DNA from: a virus
IMG/VR virus record: IMGVR_UViG_3300032156_000031
Location: 1-41,071 of that record
Strand: one strand, 5' to 3'
Length of the DNA: 41,071 bases
The notes under the pieces were generated by a model. The model ran no database searches, was not told the DNA's origin, and saw nothing but the letters and a program-made list of their open reading frames with translations. This document shows, in pieces, positions 1-41,071 of the stretch (its first letter is position 1; every line of letters begins with the position of its first letter). A program made the position numbers and the translations under genes.

Positions 1-127
1 GGGTTCGGTTTCTGTGATGCGAATTAACTCTTTGTCGTGGTCAGGATGCGAATGTAAAACCAGAGGCAGTTCATCTTTGAACTGTTCAAGTATGAACCCT
101 TCAGGCATCAGTCCGCTGAACCAAGGG
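1..127. repeat. Terminal direct repeat, copy 1 (circular junction)
   Basis: Bases 1-127 are identical to 40945-41071. The repeat falls inside an open reading frame that continues across it, with the stop codon at 40921-40923. A 127-base exact overlap is a typical large assembly k-mer, so this marks a circular or circularly permuted molecule rather than a biological terminal repeat. The unique length is 40,944 bp. Confidence 0.95.
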
Positions 128-1689
128 TCTACTTTTACGTCGCCAACCATTCTGTCAGCGCCGTCACGCAGCGTTAGCTTGTACTTCAGGGCTTCCACGC
201 CTTTCGCGTTGCCAAAATGGTAAACGTTGACGCCGTCCAGAACCTGCTGGCGTTTTCGATATTGCGGGTAGTCAAGGCTTACGGGAATGCCGAAGCCGTC
301 TATGGGTATTTCGTGTTTCTGAGCGAAGTTTAAGCCTGGAATGTCAGTCCAAGTTAGAAAGGCGTGCGGTGCACCATACAGTGCCCAGGGACTAAGCGGG
401 TTCATCACGTAGGCGATGTGTTTGAAGTCGTGCCAGAAGTTGTAGAAACGTTCTGGTCGAGCATACACGATTTTGCCGTCTTGGTTGGCTTCGCAGAACT
501 GTCGGACTTTGTCCATGCCTTTCGGGTCTAGGATCTCGTCGCCGTCAATGTAGAGCATCCATTTGCTACTGCAGATTTCCAACAGTTTAGTTTGTATTTC
601 TTCTCTGGTGTGCCATTTTCCCTGTATCAACCTGATTTTCTTTTCTGGGTCAGGGAAGTTCTTGATAATGTCTACTGTGCCGTCTTTGCTGCTTCCGTCA
701 GTTTTTGCTCTTTGAAGAGAGTCTGCTATTGCGCCTTCAACAATGTCGATGCGATCCACATAATCGTAAATGCTTTTGAGACTGTACTCAAGAAATCGGG
801 CTTCATTGAACACTTTGTAGCTGGCTGTTAAGAGTGACCGTTTGTTCCACCATTCATGCACGGACTTGCTTTCTTCAGGAAACTTTGTGTCAAACCATTT
901 TTCGTAGAGTTCCCGATCGAGCTGATAGCGGTAGGCGCCGACTTCGTGCATTGAATATTTTTTGCCGTCGCAGGTGATGTAGGGCACGAAACTGTAAGGG
1001 TGATTTATCGGGTAGTGCATGATGCCGAAGTATTCAAGGTCAGCATGGTAAACGTGGACTCGCGGGTCAAGATATATTGTGAATCCTTGTTCTTTCAGGC
1101 CTTTGCAGAATGGAATGTTTGGGTAGGGGTTAGTGTATGTGCCTGCCAGTTCTGCCTCTCGCTTTCTCAGTCCACACACATTGCCGAAAGAGTCAATTGG
1201 GATAGGTTCAGTCGCGTTGAGTCCTGGCGGCCTGAACAGGTGGAACATGCAGCCGTCTTTGCGGAACATGTAAGTGTCAAAGAACGTTGGAACTTCACGT
1301 TTTTCAATCCAAACCATCGGTGCGACAACGTCGTAGCCGCTTCGTTGTAACTGGCTGATTAGGTCAGGCGGAAACTGGACAAGGTCTGGGTCAAAGCTTA
1401 GGTAGTAGTCTTCGTCGCCTTGCTTGAGCAACTGTTGAATGTCCCGTTTTATGGTGGCAAGGTTATAGTTTGTTCGGCTGGGCGTAGGAAGGTAGGGTTC
1501 ATGGTAGACTTCAACTTTGTGCCTTGAGGTTTGCTTGTAATGTTGTAGCATGCGCAGCGAGGGGTCGACGCTGTCGCCGTACATGAATATTACTCGGCCT
1601 ACGGGGTCTTCAAGTTGCTCGACCAAACTCAAGAATCTCGGCAGCCACATGGCCACTTCTTTAACTTTGACTGCTATCATGGTTTTCAT
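1..1689 (-). CDS. Two-domain glycosyltransferase (GT-A/GT2-like), crosses the circular junction
   Basis: An open frame starts at ATG 1689 and runs off the left edge. On the circle it continues from 40944 to a TGA at 40921-40923, giving 570 residues. The start overlaps the stop of the upstream GT4 gene (ATGA). The N-terminal half (about 1-230) looks like an Anp1-like GT-A domain with a DPD motif at residues 100-102. The C-terminal half (about 285-510) is a GT2-like domain that opens with an N-E-A-R-F-L segment and has D-G-D-E at 382-385. Both are candidate metal/nucleotide-sugar sites. It probably adds sugars to a virion or host-surface glycan, as part of the GT4-GT-methyltransferase-epimerase set. 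Domain assignment is by motif and order only; acceptor and sugar are unknown. Confidence 0.8.
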   Translation of the reverse strand, partial: MKTMIAVKVKEVAMWLPRFLSLVEQLEDPVGRVIFMYGDSVDPSLRMLQHYKQTSRHKVEVYHEPYLPTPSRTNYNLATIKRDIQQLLKQGDEDYYLSFDPDLVQFPPDLISQLQRSGYDVVAPMVWIEKREVPTFFDTYMFRKDGCMFHLFRPPGLNATEPIPIDSFGNVCGLRKREAELAGTYTNPYPNIPFCKGLKEQGFTIYLDPRVHVYHADLEYFGIMHYPINHPYSFVPYITCDGKKYSMHEVGAYRYQLDRELYEKWFDTKFPEESKSVHEWWNKRSLLTASYKVFNEARFLEYSLKSIYDYVDRIDIVEGAIADSLQRAKTDGSSKDGTVDIIKNFPDPEKKIRLIQGKWHTREEIQTKLLEICSSKWMLYIDGDEILDPKGMDKVRQFCEANQDGKIVYARPERFYNFWHDFKHIAYVMNPLSPWALYGAPHAFLTWTDIPGLNFAQKHEIPIDGFGIPVSLDYPQYRKRQQVLDGVNVYHFGNAKGVEALKYKLTLRDGADRMVGDVKVDPWFSGLMPEGFILEQFKDELPLVLHSHPDHDKELIRITETEP

Positions 1690-2948
1690 AGCAGTCGGGT
1701 CTCCAGAGGCGTGTAGCCTGTTTCGCCGCGTATGTCCTCGAAAAACTCGATCCATTTAGCGTTTACATGTTTGAAGTCGTAGTCCAACGCGAACTGTCGG
1801 CCAGCCTCGCCGAACTTTATTCGCTTCTCAGGATGGTTGTACGCATCTTCTAATGCTTCTGCAGCTTTATACTCGTCTGCTATGCCCTGCAAAGCGTCTA
1901 GCGGGCTGAAATATTTCGTTTTCATGGGAATGCTCCAGCCGTGCCCTTCTACGAGCTCGCCCATGCCTACAAAGTCGCTGCCAATCACTGGCACACCGCA
2001 TGACAGTGCTTCAAGAATTGGAACTTCAAAGCCGCCGCCTTCGCTTAGATGCATGAAAACGTCGGCTGCACCATATATTTTTGCCATCGCAGACTCTGGC
2101 ACGCTGCATAAGTTGTGGTAGTCGTCTGTGCCTCGGCACAAATGTTGAATGTGCAGGGTCTTTGCGCCGTGCGGAATGTCGCGGGCCTGCTTCATCCAGC
2201 TGTGCACGTAAACGCGAAGGTTCTTCTCTGCTTCTGGATTGTTATGCAGGAATATTTGGATGGCGCTGAACATGCGCATAAACCCTTTCCGATAAGCGTC
2301 TTTGTTTGCGCCGTTCATTACTATGACGAAAGAGTCTTCAGAAATGCGCGTGTTGTTATTCGGATCCAAAACTACGCTACGGTCATTTAGCCACGTTTTG
2401 CATTCTTTCTTGTTTTCAGGCGGCGCGTAGGTTTCTGTGTTGACTCCGAAAGGAATGTGCCACGCGTCAACGTTGTATTTGCGGAATTGTTCTACGCCGA
2501 ATAAGGTTGGCGTTACTACTCTGTAGGCTACTGCGGCTTGGATCAATGTGGCTTCTGGAATTGGTTCGTGGTCAACCATGACTATGGGAACCCAGTATGG
2601 ATGTATAGGCTGGAAACCCTGCGGAGTTTTGTCTGAAGGGTCAACGTATGCGCCCATCCAAATGTCGTAGAGAGTAACGAAGAGGTCTGGCTTCCACGGG
2701 CTGTTGCGAAATATTAGTCTGGCTGTGCGGTCTCCATGTTGGTCTCCAGACAATGTGGGATAGATTTGGAGCCCGTTGAAACTGAGTGTTGCGCCGTCAA
2801 GCCCGTAAAAGGCTAGTTGTCGCACATCGTAATACTTGTTCCATTCGTACAGTGTGCCCTTGCTTTGCACTCCGTAGCCGCTGGGAACCCACACGCTGTT
2901 GCTTAATTGTAGGATTCTGAATTTTTTGCTGTCTGGTTTAACTTTCAT
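1686..2948 (-). CDS. Glycosyltransferase family 4 (group 1)
   Basis: The 420-residue protein has a GT-B architecture. The C-terminal signature of GT4 enzymes is clear: G-G-G-F-E-V-P at about 304-310, then I-L-E-A at 311-314 and C-G-V-P-V-I at 317-322, which is the EX4-7E donor-binding site. N-terminal V-P-S-G-Y-G (21-26) is typical of the acceptor domain. It retains its sugar, transfers from an NDP-sugar and probably acts in the host cytoplasm on virion proteins or a cell-surface glycan. It sits directly downstream of the major capsid gene and overlaps the next glycosyltransferase by ATGA, so the two are probably translationally coupled. Confidence 0.9.
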   Translation of the reverse strand: MKVKPDSKKFRILQLSNSVWVPSGYGVQSKGTLYEWNKYYDVRQLAFYGLDGATLSFNGLQIYPTLSGDQHGDRTARLIFRNSPWKPDLFVTLYDIWMGAYVDPSDKTPQGFQPIHPYWVPIVMVDHEPIPEATLIQAAVAYRVVTPTLFGVEQFRKYNVDAWHIPFGVNTETYAPPENKKECKTWLNDRSVVLDPNNNTRISEDSFVIVMNGANKDAYRKGFMRMFSAIQIFLHNNPEAEKNLRVYVHSWMKQARDIPHGAKTLHIQHLCRGTDDYHNLCSVPESAMAKIYGAADVFMHLSEGGGFEVPILEALSCGVPVIGSDFVGMGELVEGHGWSIPMKTKYFSPLDALQGIADEYKAAEALEDAYNHPEKRIKFGEAGRQFALDYDFKHVNAKWIEFFEDIRGETGYTPLETRLL

Positions 2949-3017
2949 TCTCCAACTTCTCCATTATTCAAACTGAAAAAAAGGGGAAAGATTGTTTGCG
3001 GATTCTGCCGTGCTATT

Positions 3018-3738
3018 TTACTTGGCGGTGTAGATTAGCCAAACACCGTCGCTGCAGACGATAGATTTGCCGAACCGCACTGAAGCGTAGATGTATTTGC
3101 GTTGGGTCTGCACCAAGTACTGCTGTTCCATAACTGGGTCGCGTTTCTTGGCTGCGTGCACTGCGTAGCGACTGAGCATAATGCTCGCGTACGTGCCGAC
3201 ACCTGGCTTTAAGCTGCCTTTCGGAACCACAATTATGTCTAGGCCCAAATACTGGATTATGTGTCCGCCTGTTATGACGCTGCGATCTCCAAACGTGGCT
3301 GCGTTCACGAACTGCGAGTCTTGCATAAGGCTAGCTTCAACGACGGGGTGGATGACGAGGGCCACGGGTTCGCATGTTCCGTTGCGCATGCTGCCGATTG
3401 CTTCAGCGATTGTGTTGCCAGTCATGGTGCCTGTGGTTTTGTTTAATGTGCCGCCGACGGGTCCATCTAGAATGTTGGCTATGAAGGCGTTGTCGATGCA
3501 CGTGTCCAAACATGCCATGAGGCTTTCGTTCAGTTCAGTTATGGTGTCTTCAACCACGTCTTCAAGGTCGTCTCTACAAATGTATTGGCTGCACTGGTAC
3601 TCTTCCAAAGTGATAGCACAAGCACCAATCGTTAATGTTCCTGCCACTGGTTCTGCGCATCCAGCAGTTCCGCATGTTGCACGTGGCACGGTGATAACGT
3701 GAATAGTGTCGCCTGGCTTGCCATGTATGTCTTCATGC
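3018..3738 (-). CDS. Major capsid protein (HK97-like), C-terminal exon
   Basis: The frame is open from just after an in-frame TAA at about 3741 down to the stop at 3018. It begins H-E-D-I-H-G-K-P-G-D-T-I-H-V, a segment typical of the N-arm/E-loop boundary of HK97-fold capsid proteins. No ATG/GTG/TTG lies upstream of this conserved segment; the first possible start is GTG 3689, with no ribosome-binding site. The rest (V-V-E-A-S-L-M-Q-D and the D-R-S-V-I-T-G-G-H-I region) fits the P and A domains. Joined to the exon at 4313-4635 across a shared GCATG it gives 1,044 nt, exactly 347 residues plus stop, a normal capsid size. The alternative is a two-polypeptide capsid, which the missing start makes less likely. 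Confidence 0.75.
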
Positions 3739-3751
3739 CATTAATCACGCA

Positions 3752-4243
3752 TCAGTATGCCCAAAGAGGAATGGTTAGTGCGAACATTTGGTTCCATGTT
3801 AGGTGTAAATATTCCATAGCCCAATGAACATGACCGTGGCAACTATAACAGATATATGTAAAGTCGTTAGCATGCTCAAGAATATATTTGTAACTTCGCG
3901 GGTGTTTTTGCCCGTTCTTTTGGTGAAAAATCAGTTTTCTTTCTCTTTCTTCACCGCAAACGGGGCATTTTCTTCCAAAGATTTGAAACAGTTGCTCTTT
4001 TTCTTTATGGTCATGTTTCCGCTCGGAATCTCTTACTCTATCAGGATGCCGCGCCTGATATTTTTTCACAGTTTGCAACATTTTCGCTTTATAATCTTGG
4101 TTGTTTAGTCTCCATTTAGCGTGATAATTTTTGAAAGCGTTTTTGTCGAAAACAAAATTCTTGCGGCAATGACGGCAGTAAGATAATCCACTTTTTGCTG
4201 AACTGTCTATTTCTGCATTACAATTTGGGCAATGAACTAACAT
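3752..4243 (-). CDS. HNH homing endonuclease encoded in the capsid-gene intron
   Basis: The 163-residue protein has an N-terminal zinc ribbon (C5, C8, C23, C26), a basic middle, and a C-terminal HNH/zinc module: C-P-V-C near residue 94, F-H-Q-K-N-G about 13 residues on, then C-Y-S-C-H-G-H-V-H. It probably nicks or cuts the intron-less capsid allele and drives intron homing. Codon use is A+T-rich compared with the flanking capsid exons. It ends 13 nt before the second exon, so its 3' end may overlap intron structure. ATG 4243 is the only good start. The family call is firm; the homing role is inferred from location. Confidence 0.8.
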   Translation of the reverse strand: MLVHCPNCNAEIDSSAKSGLSYCRHCRKNFVFDKNAFKNYHAKWRLNNQDYKAKMLQTVKKYQARHPDRVRDSERKHDHKEKEQLFQIFGRKCPVCGEERERKLIFHQKNGQKHPRSYKYILEHANDFTYICYSCHGHVHWAMEYLHLTWNQMFALTIPLWAY

Positions 4244-4262
4244 ATTTTACTCTAACATAGTT

Positions 4263-4301
4263 CCATTTAATAAATGTTCTCACTCATCCCCTATTAAATG
4301 G
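4263..4301 (-). repeat. Inverted repeat at the 5' end of the capsid intron
   Basis: A perfect 10-bp inverted repeat: minus-strand CCATTTAATA (4301-4292) and TATTAAATGG (4272-4263), with a 19-nt loop. It includes the stop codon of the first exon frame. The left arm, extended as ATGCCATTTAAT, can alternatively pair with ATTAATGGCAT at the 3' boundary (3745-3735), 11 pairs with one bulge. This is a likely RNA-structure element of the intervening sequence. Confidence 0.6.
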
Positions 4302-4312
4302 CATCTGCATGC

Positions 4313-4635
4313 TTTATGAATGGCGCATCCCAGAAGGCGCTTGCGGGGTAGGGGCAACATCTGAACACGTCTTTCGCCCAGATTTCAGGCACTGCGCTGC
4401 CAGCTTGTAGTGGGGCGATTGCCTCGAAATACTTTGCTTCGCGAGCCTTGTCTTCGCCGCTCCATCGCCAGCTACAGTTTATGTCTCGAACCATGCCTGC
4501 AACCTGTTCCTTGTAGGTTCCGACAGGCGCTTTTGCTTCACTGAGGCTTATTGGCTTCTCAGCGGGCTTCATTTTCTCTTCTAGTTTTCGAGCTGTTTTT
4601 TCTGCAAGTTCGTCTACGCTTATGATGGTTGGCAT
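4313..4635 (-). CDS. Major capsid protein (HK97-like), N-terminal exon
   Basis: The exon encodes about 107 residues from ATG 4635: a charged helical N-arm (V-D-E-L-A-E-K) followed by the conserved stretch V-P-E-I-W-A-K-D-V and A-P-F-I-K, seen just before the G-K-P-G-D segment in many HK97-fold capsids. The frame continues a few codons into the intron and stops at 4294-4296. A GTG at 4665 is an alternative start adding 10 residues; ATG 4635 is preferred because a small upstream ORF ends one base before it. A truncated translation product of 113 residues could exist if splicing fails. Confidence 0.75.
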
Positions 4636-4803: not shown

Positions 4804-5178
4804 CTATTTTGCGGTGTGCTTTCCGCAGCCGCTGCACACGAAGTAATCTAGTAAGCTGTTAGTTGCCAGAGCCGCGCCGCACTCGCTGCAACATGGCGGT
4901 TTGCATCCTTCGCAACTGTGAACATGCGTGAATTTCGGGTTTGCCTCAATGTGACCGCAGACTTGGCACACGTACATTTGGACTAGGTGCCTGTTGCTTT
5001 TAGATGATTCTTCGAAGATGTAGTTGTTGCACGCGGAGCATTTGACGCTGCTGATGAACCTTGGGTTTGTGAACTGTTTTTTGCAGGCGTCGCAAACGTA
5101 GAAGGGTACTGCTTGTCGGCAGCCGACGCATGATGGTTCGCCTACTTCTGCGCCGCAGTGGGGGCAAGGAACTGTCAT
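4804..5178 (-). CDS. Multi-zinc-ribbon protein, 124 residues
   Basis: At least five CxxC pairs are spread through the protein (C-P-H-C, C-V-G-C, C-D-A-C, C-S-A-C, C-Q-V-C, C-E-G-C, C-S-E-C, C-S-G-C), enough for three or four zinc ribbons. AGGAG about 9 nt upstream of ATG 5178 supports the start. It lies between the protease-scaffold and capsid genes and directly follows another zinc-ribbon micro-gene, whose sequence is similar to its own first ribbon. The function is unknown; nucleic-acid or protein binding during head assembly is possible. Confidence 0.75.
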   Translation of the reverse strand: MTVPCPHCGAEVGEPSCVGCRQAVPFYVCDACKKQFTNPRFISSVKCSACNNYIFEESSKSNRHLVQMYVCQVCGHIEANPKFTHVHSCEGCKPPCCSECGAALATNSLLDYFVCSGCGKHTAK

Positions 5179-23620: not shown

Positions 23621-23718
23621 CGGCCAAAATATACGTGAACGAATGTTACGCTTGTTCGCCTAGTTGCGAGATTCGCGGAACATGTAAGAAGAAGGAGAAG
23701 ATGTTTAATGATGTCTAA
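23617..23718 (+). CDS. Cys-rich micro-protein, 33 residues
   Basis: GTG 23617 overlaps the previous stop (GTGA). Four Cys (C-Y-A-C, then P-S-C and G-T-C) with a Lys-rich tail. Its stop overlaps the HNH gene start region. A likely metal-binding micro-protein of unknown role. Confidence 0.5.
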   Translation: MTAKIYVNECYACSPSCEIRGTCKKKEKMFNDV

Positions 23719-24235
23719 TATCAAGATTAATGGTAAATGGATTACTAATCCAGAATATGAGAGAAAATATCGAAGACTGCATCTTCTGGAGAGAAATGCA
23801 AATAGCCGAAAGGTATGGGTTTCAAATCCTAAGATTCGAGAATATTATCGTCTGAATCAATGGGCAAGAAAACACACTGTCCTAAGTTCTCGTTGCGAAC
23901 TATGCGATTCTACTGAACATCTTGAAAGACATCACCCAGACATATGGAACTATCCAGAAATCATAGTGACTCTCTGTGTTGAATGCCATAATTCTTTTCG
24001 CAAAGAGCAGTGCGCACAGAAACGTGAGGAGGTCAAAAAGAAACGACGAGAAATTGAATGGAAAGCAGGATATGAACGGGTTCAAGCAACTCGTAAACTT
24101 CTAAATCCCAATAATCCACATCAACCTACAGTGAGAGAAATTGCGCCGGCAGTAGGTCTTTCCAGAAGTTGGGTTTCCAAACATGATGTCTATGGGTACG
24201 CCTCATGCAGGGACAAGGAGCGAAACAAGCCATGA
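23711..24235 (+). CDS. HNH endonuclease with C-terminal HTH
   Basis: The central module has C-E-L-C-D-S at about residue 61, R-H-H-P-D, and C-V-E-C-H-N, i.e. an HNH nuclease supported by two CxxC zinc pairs. The C-terminal 45 residues contain P-T-V-R-E-I-A-P-A-V-G-L-S-R-S-W-V, a resolvase-type HTH for site recognition. Base use is A+T-rich compared with neighbours. It resembles the HNH protein at 26567. Probably a free-standing homing endonuclease; ATG 23708 is an alternative start. Confidence 0.8.
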   Translation: MSNIKINGKWITNPEYERKYRRLHLLERNANSRKVWVSNPKIREYYRLNQWARKHTVLSSRCELCDSTEHLERHHPDIWNYPEIIVTLCVECHNSFRKEQCAQKREEVKKKRREIEWKAGYERVQATRKLLNPNNPHQPTVREIAPAVGLSRSWVSKHDVYGYASCRDKERNKP

Positions 24236-26566: not shown

Positions 26567-26884
26567 TTGGTCGGCAATCACCCAGAAAAAACTATTGCTA
26601 AGCGAGAACGATTCAGGATTAATCATCCAGACTACCAAGAGAATAAGCGGAAAGAGTACAAAAAGAGGATTGACGCATACAATCATGTTTACAATGTAAA
26701 CAATAAAGACAAAAGAAGTGCTGAGAACAAAGTTAAGAAAAGCCTTCTAAGAGCAAATTGTGAAATTTGTGGCAGTAGTGAAAACCTAGTGCGGCATCAT
26801 CCAGATTATTCTGAACCGTTATTTTATGTGACGCTTTGCTCAAGTTGCCATAATTATGTTCACAATGGAGTGGCGAAACCATGA
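26567..26884 (+). CDS. HNH endonuclease, 105 residues
   Basis: TTG 26567 is the likely start. After a basic helical first half, the zinc-HNH core reads C-E-I-C-G-S-S-E-N-L-V-R-H-H-P-D, then C-S-S-C-H-N. It is clearly related to the HNH core at 23711 but lacks the C-terminal HTH. A+T-rich composition suggests recent arrival. Probably a mobile endonuclease. Confidence 0.75.
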   Translation: MVGNHPEKTIAKRERFRINHPDYQENKRKEYKKRIDAYNHVYNVNNKDKRSAENKVKKSLLRANCEICGSSENLVRHHPDYSEPLFYVTLCSSCHNYVHNGVAKP

Positions 26885-27492: not shown

Positions 27493-27669
27493 ATGAGTGG
27501 CGATTTCATAGCGTTTCGGGCGTTGTGGGATTCATACCCGTTCACCGAGGAAGCGACGCAGCTCGTTTGCGACTGCCTAAACTGGTATGTGAAGCGGAGT
27601 GGAAAGCCTTTGGAGACGGTTGAACGCGCCTTAGCACTGTACAAACTGAAAATGGAGATGAAACAATGA
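27493..27669 (+). CDS. Hypothetical protein, 58 residues
   Basis: Helical protein with aromatic core (F-R-A-L-W-D-S-Y-P-F) and C-D-C-L-N-W-Y; ends overlapping the DUF5131 gene. Perhaps a partner of that gene by position; no family. Confidence 0.45.
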   Translation: MSGDFIAFRALWDSYPFTEEATQLVCDCLNWYVKRSGKPLETVERALALYKLKMEMKQ

Positions 27670-28385
27670 GAACCAGAATGTTTCCTTTCATAACTTGCAC
27701 ATGGAATCCAATAGTGGGTTGTCTTCACGATTGCGTCTATTGCTGGGCACGGAATCTTGCGGAAACAAAACTCAAAAGCACAGAGCGTTATCGTTACGGT
27801 TTCAAACCTCAGTTTCTAGTCAAAGAATTAGGGAGACGCTTCAAGAAAGGGGACACTGTTTTTGTTTCAGACATGGGCGACGCTTTCGGAGACTGGGTTA
27901 AAGAACAATGGATAGCAGAACTTTTCAATGTTATCCGAAGGAATGAACTAACCACCTTTTTCTGTTCAACCAAGAACCCTAGCCGTTACACACAGTTCTT
28001 CTTTCCAGAAAACGTAATCAGGGCAGCAACGATTGAGACAAATCGTGAAATCCCACCAGAAATTAGCAGGGCTCCCCAACCGAAAGACCGTTTAAACGCT
28101 ATGATAGACATGGACATTTGGGACCATCCTACTTTTCTGAGTGTCGAGCCAATAATGGATTTTGACCTAGACGAATTTAGCCAAGCAATCATAAACATCA
28201 ATCCTTCATTCGGCGTTGCAATCGGATACGACAATTACAACAATCACCTTCCTGAACCTTCCCTAGAAAAGACAGAACAGCTAATCGCAAAACTTGAAAC
28301 AGCTCACATCAAAGTTTTCAGAAAAACAATTCGAGAAAAGTGTTTGGTACTGTACAAACTCAAAACGGAGACACAGAAAACATGA
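27666..28385 (+). CDS. DUF5131 (phage Gp37/Gp68-like) radical-SAM-type protein
   Basis: The 239-residue protein begins with T-W-N-P-I-V-G-C-L-H-D-C-V-Y-C-W-A (12-28), where C19-x3-C23-x2-C26 is the radical-SAM iron-sulfur motif typical of this phage family. V-F-V-S-D-M-G-D-A-F near residue 62 is the second family hallmark. Members are found in many phages, but their substrate is not established. It is probably a cytoplasmic enzyme made early. Length is normal. Nearby Cys-rich genes may be partners, which is inference. Confidence 0.85.
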   Translation: MRTRMFPFITCTWNPIVGCLHDCVYCWARNLAETKLKSTERYRYGFKPQFLVKELGRRFKKGDTVFVSDMGDAFGDWVKEQWIAELFNVIRRNELTTFFCSTKNPSRYTQFFFPENVIRAATIETNREIPPEISRAPQPKDRLNAMIDMDIWDHPTFLSVEPIMDFDLDEFSQAIININPSFGVAIGYDNYNNHLPEPSLEKTEQLIAKLETAHIKVFRKTIREKCLVLYKLKTETQKT

Positions 28386-40921: not shown

Positions 40922-41071
40922 CACACCACTTCGAACTTGTAGAAGGGTTCGGTTTCTGTGATGCGAATTAACTCTTTGTCGTGGTCAGGATGCGAATGTA
41001 AAACCAGAGGCAGTTCATCTTTGAACTGTTCAAGTATGAACCCTTCAGGCATCAGTCCGCTGAACCAAGGG
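40921..41071 (-). CDS. C-terminal end of the two-domain glycosyltransferase
   Basis: This is the 3' end of the gene described at 1-1689, repeated because of the circular overlap. The last unique codons (40944-40921) read F-Y-K-F-E-V-V and stop at TGA 40923-40921. Positions 40945-41071 duplicate 1-127 and must not be counted twice. Confidence 0.85.
   Translation of the reverse strand, partial: PWFSGLMPEGFILEQFKDELPLVLHSHPDHDKELIRITETEPFYKFEVV
40945..41071. repeat. Terminal direct repeat, copy 2 (circular junction)
   Basis: Exact copy of 1-127. Removing it closes the circle at 40,944 bp. Confidence 0.95.

Follow-up and report, generated by a model that had tools for sequence, protein, structure and literature searches.

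A 571-bp HNH-family element inserted precisely in the only major capsid protein gene of a circular tailed-virus genome

The only major capsid protein (MCP) gene of the IMG/VR virus record IMGVR_UViG_3300032156_000031 is interrupted by a precisely inserted 571-bp element of the HNH family, and close relatives have an empty site at the same position. The DNA analyzed, hereafter the window, is the whole stretch of 41,071 nt (positions 1 to 41,071 of the record). Because each particle takes hundreds of copies of its capsid protein, an insert in the capsid gene is lethal unless it is dealt with almost perfectly. Comparable inserts known from capsid genes are group I introns that splice themselves; the insert in the window is nearly all nuclease gene, with no space beside that gene for a ribozyme. 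At stake are an undescribed removal route, a capsid protein made of two chains, or a dead allele. We tentatively favor removal of the insert at the RNA level by a route outside the recognized intron classes, with a probability of roughly 0.45. The features of the region are collected in Table 1.

Table 1. Positions of the interrupted capsid gene, its insert, and associated features in the window
Feature	Position	Strand	Basis or relation
MCP gene 5' part, codons 1-108, ends FIK	4312..4635	-	Homology to uninterrupted MCP in L001 and L002
MCP gene 3' part, codons 109-348	3018..3740	-	tblastn; PHROG major head protein
Insert, 571 nt, phase 0, length 1 mod 3	3741..4311	-	Missing in L001 and L002
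HNH-type ORF, 163 aa	3752..4243	-	Nearest relative L015:2748-3146
Left arm of long inverted repeat	4225..4324	-	Decayed inverted copy of HNH gene 3' end
Right arm: HNH ORF 3' end, insert end, and first 4 nt of second exon	3737..3824	-	
Perfect 10-bp local inverted repeat CCATTTAATA...TATTAAATGG	4263..4301	-	Alternative hairpin upstream of HNH start
TATA-box-like TTTATTAAA, ~25 nt upstream of HNH ATG	4266..4274	-	Read from sequence
TAA closing first half after HADAI, then TAG	4294..4296	-	Frame reading
In-frame TAA directly before second half	3741..3743	-	Frame reading
First standard in-frame start of second half, GTG, MCP codon 126	3687..3689	-	

One capsid gene and its empty site

Searching the window by tblastn with the intact MCP of a relative placed residues 1-111 at 4635..4303 and residues 108-347 at 3740..3021, and revealed no second MCP and no other capsid-like stretch. 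Two relatives, L001 (IMG/VR 3300031952_000034, MCP 98% identical in amino acids) and L002 (3300009314_000031, 66%), carry the same gene uninterrupted with a clean empty site, and the alignment to both passes the seam without a gap. The MCP profile also matches the solved capsid protein PDB 9jwb across the seam (positions 69-288, E 3e-4), and annotated MCPs of Microbacterium phages align to residues 81-343. Homology to solved HK97-type proteins thus crosses the seam, which argues for an HK97-fold MCP; the AlphaFold model was unusable (pLDDT 28). A preliminary description made from the sequence alone had taken two ORFs for the halves of one HK97-type capsid protein interrupted by an HNH-encoding sequence and had named uninterrupted homologues as a check, and the tblastn halves, the gap-free homologues and the 9jwb profile all bear this out. 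In both halves the frame has stayed open and the protein sequence conserved; beyond codon 50 the gene differs from that of L001 by 10 synonymous and 2 conservative changes.

The junction can be read directly from the DNA of L001, where the empty site runs ...TTCATTAAG directly followed by TGGCATGAAGAC..., against ...TTCATAAAG, the insert, and TGGCATGAAGAC... in the window. Because of this empty site, the insert is placed at 4311..3741, and its size, earlier estimated at about 574 bp, becomes 571 nt. The insertion point lies between codons 108 and 109, AAG (4314-4312) and TGG (3740-3738); no target base was lost or duplicated, and the position is unambiguous. Joining the flanks there yields 1,047 nt and 348 aa with the sequence IKWHED, the seam reading FIKWHEDIHGKPGD.

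The preliminary description had instead joined the halves at a GCATG found at both edges. The two copies are real and in phase (4312-4308 and 3738-3734), but they are displaced by 3 bases from the junction, and a join there (1,044 nt, 347 residues) drops Trp109, which L001 and L002 both have; its product, which is also what a ribosomal bypass would make, would read FIKHEDIHGKPGD. Similarity of the insert ends to the flanks on the far side falls short of significance (joint p 0.11). We therefore rejected the GCATG repeats as a target duplication or splice signal, the similarity of the edges being within chance and the resulting junction contradicting the relatives.

The HNH gene and the origin of the insert

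All but 79 nt of the insert are coding. The encoded protein carries a zinc ribbon at its N terminus and CxxC...HQKNG..HP...CxxCHxHVHW at its C terminus, and library profiles match it weakly (PHROG endonuclease VII, 5e-4; HNH, 0.05). A homologue in the contig L015, located by the C-terminal motif, aligns with the whole nuclease domain (E 2e-13) and has a textbook HNH motif with HH, where the capsid-gene protein has HQ. This alignment, together with the HNH motif and the zinc-binding cysteines, supports placing the insert ORF in the HNH group, as the preliminary description had it. The change from HH to HQ falls at the usual general-base position, which puts nuclease activity in doubt. The AlphaFold model of the protein is weak (pLDDT 65), and its top Foldseek matches are HNH nucleases at a nonsignificant score (E 0.38). 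The homologue in L015 is free-standing, between Asp and Met tRNA genes; this virus contig carries an array of 22 tRNA genes (888-3672) around what is the sole close homologue of the capsid HNH gene. The window itself holds two small ORFs with HNH motifs elsewhere, at 23708-24235 (+; ERHHPD) and 26567-26884 (+; VRHHPD), both apparently free-standing, unlike the one in the capsid gene.

IMG/VR yielded no further carriers when queried with two motif patterns, with the HNH protein and with its alignment, and a scan of the genome contigs with the HNH protein returned zinc-ribbon matches only; a single copy of the element is known. An insert carried by a single contig might be an artefact, either a chimeric assembly or a sequencing error that produced a false TAA before TGG. 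The clean, target-preserving edges, the HNH family features and the inverted repeat spanning both junctions are all unlike a chimera, and we find this explanation barely credible.

The insert allele reads as a recent gain, since the nearest relative keeps the empty site. Compared with L001, the 16 nt that adjoin the insert upstream hold three synonymous changes, and the nearest further mismatch lies ~178 nt upstream; co-conversion with a donor of slightly different sequence would produce such a cluster. Identity to the relative is 95.8% upstream of the insert versus 98.4% downstream, a jump that no more than hints at a recombination border. Both the allele polymorphism and the clustered synonymous changes fit a homing-type HNH element, which would have been copied into the MCP gene from another carrier virus by HNH-promoted gene conversion.

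Expression of the interrupted gene

How can an MCP be made from such a gene? Past the junction, the first half reads on for five codons (HADAI) and then meets TAA TAG, while the second half is preceded directly by an in-frame TAA. An intein was rejected on these grounds, the frame being discontinuous, with a length of 1 mod 3 and stops at both ends. The in-frame stops and the missing start exclude read-through as well and render expression as two chains unattractive though possible. The preliminary description had remarked that the second half has no start codon before its conserved beginning, and the frames agree: the first GTG (3689) lies 17 codons into the conserved sequence. A chain begun there would lose WHEDIHGKPGDTIHVIT, a segment largely conserved in L001 and L002 that leads into the E-loop.

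Two chains, residues 1-108 plus HADAI and residues ~126-348, could nonetheless be translated separately and assemble together. Genes in pieces are a known outcome of HNH homing-gene insertion, as with mobE in nrdA of phage Aeh1 (PMC2988022), and two features of the window would suit this outcome: the first half meets stops at once, and the TGA of the HNH gene overlaps, in TGATG (3754-3750), an ATG (3752) that shares the frame of the second half, a layout typical of translational coupling. However, that ATG frame is closed three codons on by the TAA right before TGG, so the downstream piece has no start codon of its own at the junction of the kind seen in Aeh1, and no Shine-Dalgarno-like motif precedes GTG 3689, the first usable start, whose use would remove the conserved segment. 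We consider two separate chains unlikely. With both in-frame readings stopped and the second half lacking a usable start, restoration at the RNA level appears the most likely way to an MCP.

The preliminary description had called the insert an intron. Its premises, an interrupted gene and a second half with no sensible start, stand, but we recognized no known intron class. The insert gave no Rfam match to a group I or group II core at E<=10, whereas the same search, as a positive control, found the capsid intron of phage LittleE as Intron_gpI (E 1.2e-5). The edges fixed by the empty site are AAG before the insert, C and A as its first and last bases, and TGG after it. A group I intron was rejected: there is no P3-P8 core, exon 1 ends in G rather than U, and the insert ends in A rather than G. 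A group II intron was rejected as well, the insert starting with CATGC and ending with TTAA, as against a GUGYG start, an AY end and a domain V, again with no Rfam match. Full enumeration found no canonical 3-4-3 bulge-helix-bulge motif at any protein-restoring cut.

A bulge-helix-bulge intron of relaxed form, as a substrate of the archaeal tRNA-splicing endonuclease, deserves separate consideration, since the archaeal mRNA introns covered by the literature consulted are of this type and some of the enzymes accept relaxed motifs (PMC2738675, PMC12397907). One can draw a slipped hBH motif (TTCAT/ATGAA, AAA bulge, GCAT/ATG-G-C) whose cuts restore IKWHED. The best slipped variant is equalled in 24% of shuffled inserts, however (p=0.24), the stable fold puts both edges on the wrong sides of an internal loop, and an archaeal host is only suggested; this solution is quite improbable.

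What the preliminary description missed is that the insert is bounded by imperfect inverted repeats of ~90 nt. The arms (4324-4225 and 3824-3737) are complementary in 68 of 84 aligned columns and span both junctions, and their inverted-repeat score of 84 exceeds the genome maximum of 74 (2363 windows of equal geometry) as well as all 2000 shuffles. Reverse-complemented, the left arm encodes IWAMN...MFSLIPY, the counterpart at the 3' end of the HNH gene being HWAME...MFALTIPLW. The left arm is thus recognizably a decayed inverted copy of that end, as a result of which the RNA would fold as a long rod. In the prediction the arms pair and the base of the rod starts at the first base of the insert; the pairing of the insert ends has a duplex p of 0.002. 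The insert has a minimum free energy of -145; dinucleotide shuffles average -119.3 +/- 5.6 (z -4.6, 0/100), and the fold is also more stable than those of synonymous-codon shuffles (z -2.85, 0/100). As a control, a further 58 windows of 571 nt from this virus gave z 0.3 +/- 1.1, with a minimum of -2.9. The antisense strand of the insert folds well too (z -3.1), which leaves selection on the RNA unproven, and the rod may have arisen incidentally, through an inverted duplication of the DNA.

Under the reading that we favor, the paired arms of ~90 nt would form the rod and draw the exon edges together, and the insert would then be removed from the RNA, restoring a single 348-residue MCP. The predicted rod also holds the HNH start codon in a helix and may mask it on capsid transcripts, much as T4-type homing genes are held back on upstream transcripts (PMC2988022). 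The TATA-like box in the left arm, a putative promoter of the HNH gene itself, could give a separate HNH transcript. Counted in favor of RNA-level removal are the clean phase-0 insertion relative to a 98% identical empty allele, the single MCP gene in a circular genome, the conserved MCP protein, the stability of the insert RNA and the pairing of its ends. Counted against it are the failure to recognize any intron class, the mere 79 non-coding nt, the possible by-product nature of the rod and the single copy.

The same rod could serve ribosome bypassing, comparable to T4 gene 60, in which ribosomes would move from the CAT of AAG-CAT to the CAT of TGG-CAT and produce IKHED without Trp109. In-phase CAT codons do lie within GCATG at both edges and would be drawn close by the rod, and an HNH insertion (mobA) split the gene 60 region of T4. 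Moreover, distant MCPs (L011 and PDB 9jwb) have no residue at the Trp109 position, so a product without Trp is not absurd, merely less likely. On the other hand, no stop follows the take-off codon directly, the similarity of the edges is within chance, close relatives retain the Trp, and 571 nt is about 10 times the length of known bypasses. Bypassing is therefore very improbable. As for removal by neither a group I, a group II nor a canonical bulge-helix-bulge mechanism but via the terminal inverted repeat, which would make the insert a new type of minimal HNH intron, or else a very long bypass, we hold this proposal to be doubtful.

Known systems and genome context

The closest parallels each share part of the arrangement. 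The mycobacteriophage LittleE has a group I intron in its major capsid gene, with splicing established by RT-PCR and N-terminal sequencing (PMC3706429, which also cites a capsid intron of the lactococcal phage Tuc2009). Both LittleE and the window have an endonuclease-bearing sequence in a capsid gene that is missing from close relatives. LittleE has a group I core, a U at the end of exon 1 and a G as the last intron base, all three of which the window insert lacks. HNH insertion elements of the ShiLan type in phage methylases, which have no recognizable intron (PMC11855218), resemble it in consisting almost entirely of an HNH gene with zinc ribbons, in lying between two codons of a conserved stretch and in the lack of a detectable intron or intein. 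The ShiLan frame stays open, whereas stops close the frame of the window insert, which therefore needs removal or split expression. In Aeh1, too, an HNH gene splits an essential gene and the first half (of nrdA) ends soon past the junction (PMC2988022), but the second half is translated alone there and has no suitable start here. The tape-measure introns of ICP1 likewise place HNH genes inside a virion gene, variably among relatives (PMC10448857); their splicing was documented by RNA-seq and RT-PCR, whereas that of the window insert is putative. Pairing that draws the exon edges together, as predicted for the window insert, is shared with archaeal bulge-helix-bulge introns of cbf5 and rRNA, those in rRNA being able to carry homing endonucleases (PMC2738675), but the canonical motif is absent from the window, and the cbf5 introns measure 16-44 bp and carry no nuclease. 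The present case combines features of the LittleE, ShiLan and genes-in-pieces types while matching none fully. We found no published report of a capsid intron with an HNH gene in an archaeal virus in the literature searched.

An archaeal host, presumed in the preliminary description, is only suggested: behind it are weak matches to archaeal zinc-ribbon families and some terminase relatives, which occur in viruses of both domains.

An exact 127-nt end repeat (window 1-127 = 40945-41071) indicates that the record is a circular molecule, and it looks complete. Since 127 is a common, and the usual maximum, assembler k-mer size, the repeat shows circularity and nothing beyond. The virus encodes terminase, portal and tail proteins, an integrase, ParB-like proteins and sugar-nucleotide/glycosyl enzymes; its morphogenesis genes other than the MCP gene are intact, and compared with a relative, 27 of 33 matched ORFs of 100+ aa are full length, the one clear split being the MCP gene. 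Could the split allele simply be dead? The MCP would then be inactivated, and the DNA would belong to a provirus or episome that is defective or domesticated, or to a virus needing a co-infecting relative. No processing signal was recognized, the insertion is recent and absent from close relatives, integrase and ParB-like genes make a non-lytic state possible, and the circular contig may derive from non-virion DNA. Against this, the insertion is the consensus of an assembled circular genome, the other morphogenesis genes are intact, and open frames with conserved protein sequence persist in both halves of the gene. A disrupted allele is, in our estimate, an unlikely explanation, and RNA-level removal remains the reading that we prefer.

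Compared with the genome G001, blocks of 94-98% identity alternate with unalignable stretches across the window (1-41071), a strong mosaicism whose lower-identity side lies directly upstream of the insert. At 27666-28385 (+), the window carries a gene for a DUF5131/radical-SAM-like protein (PF07505, E 2e-14) with relatives in a Methanomicrobiales virus and in actinobacterial phages. A zinc-ribbon gene (window 4804-5178) sits upstream of the capsid gene. Its counterpart in L002 (4077-4495) apparently contains three in-frame stops, TAG TGA and TGA, past which the zinc-binding motifs carry on in the same frame, indicative of either a pseudogene or recoding.
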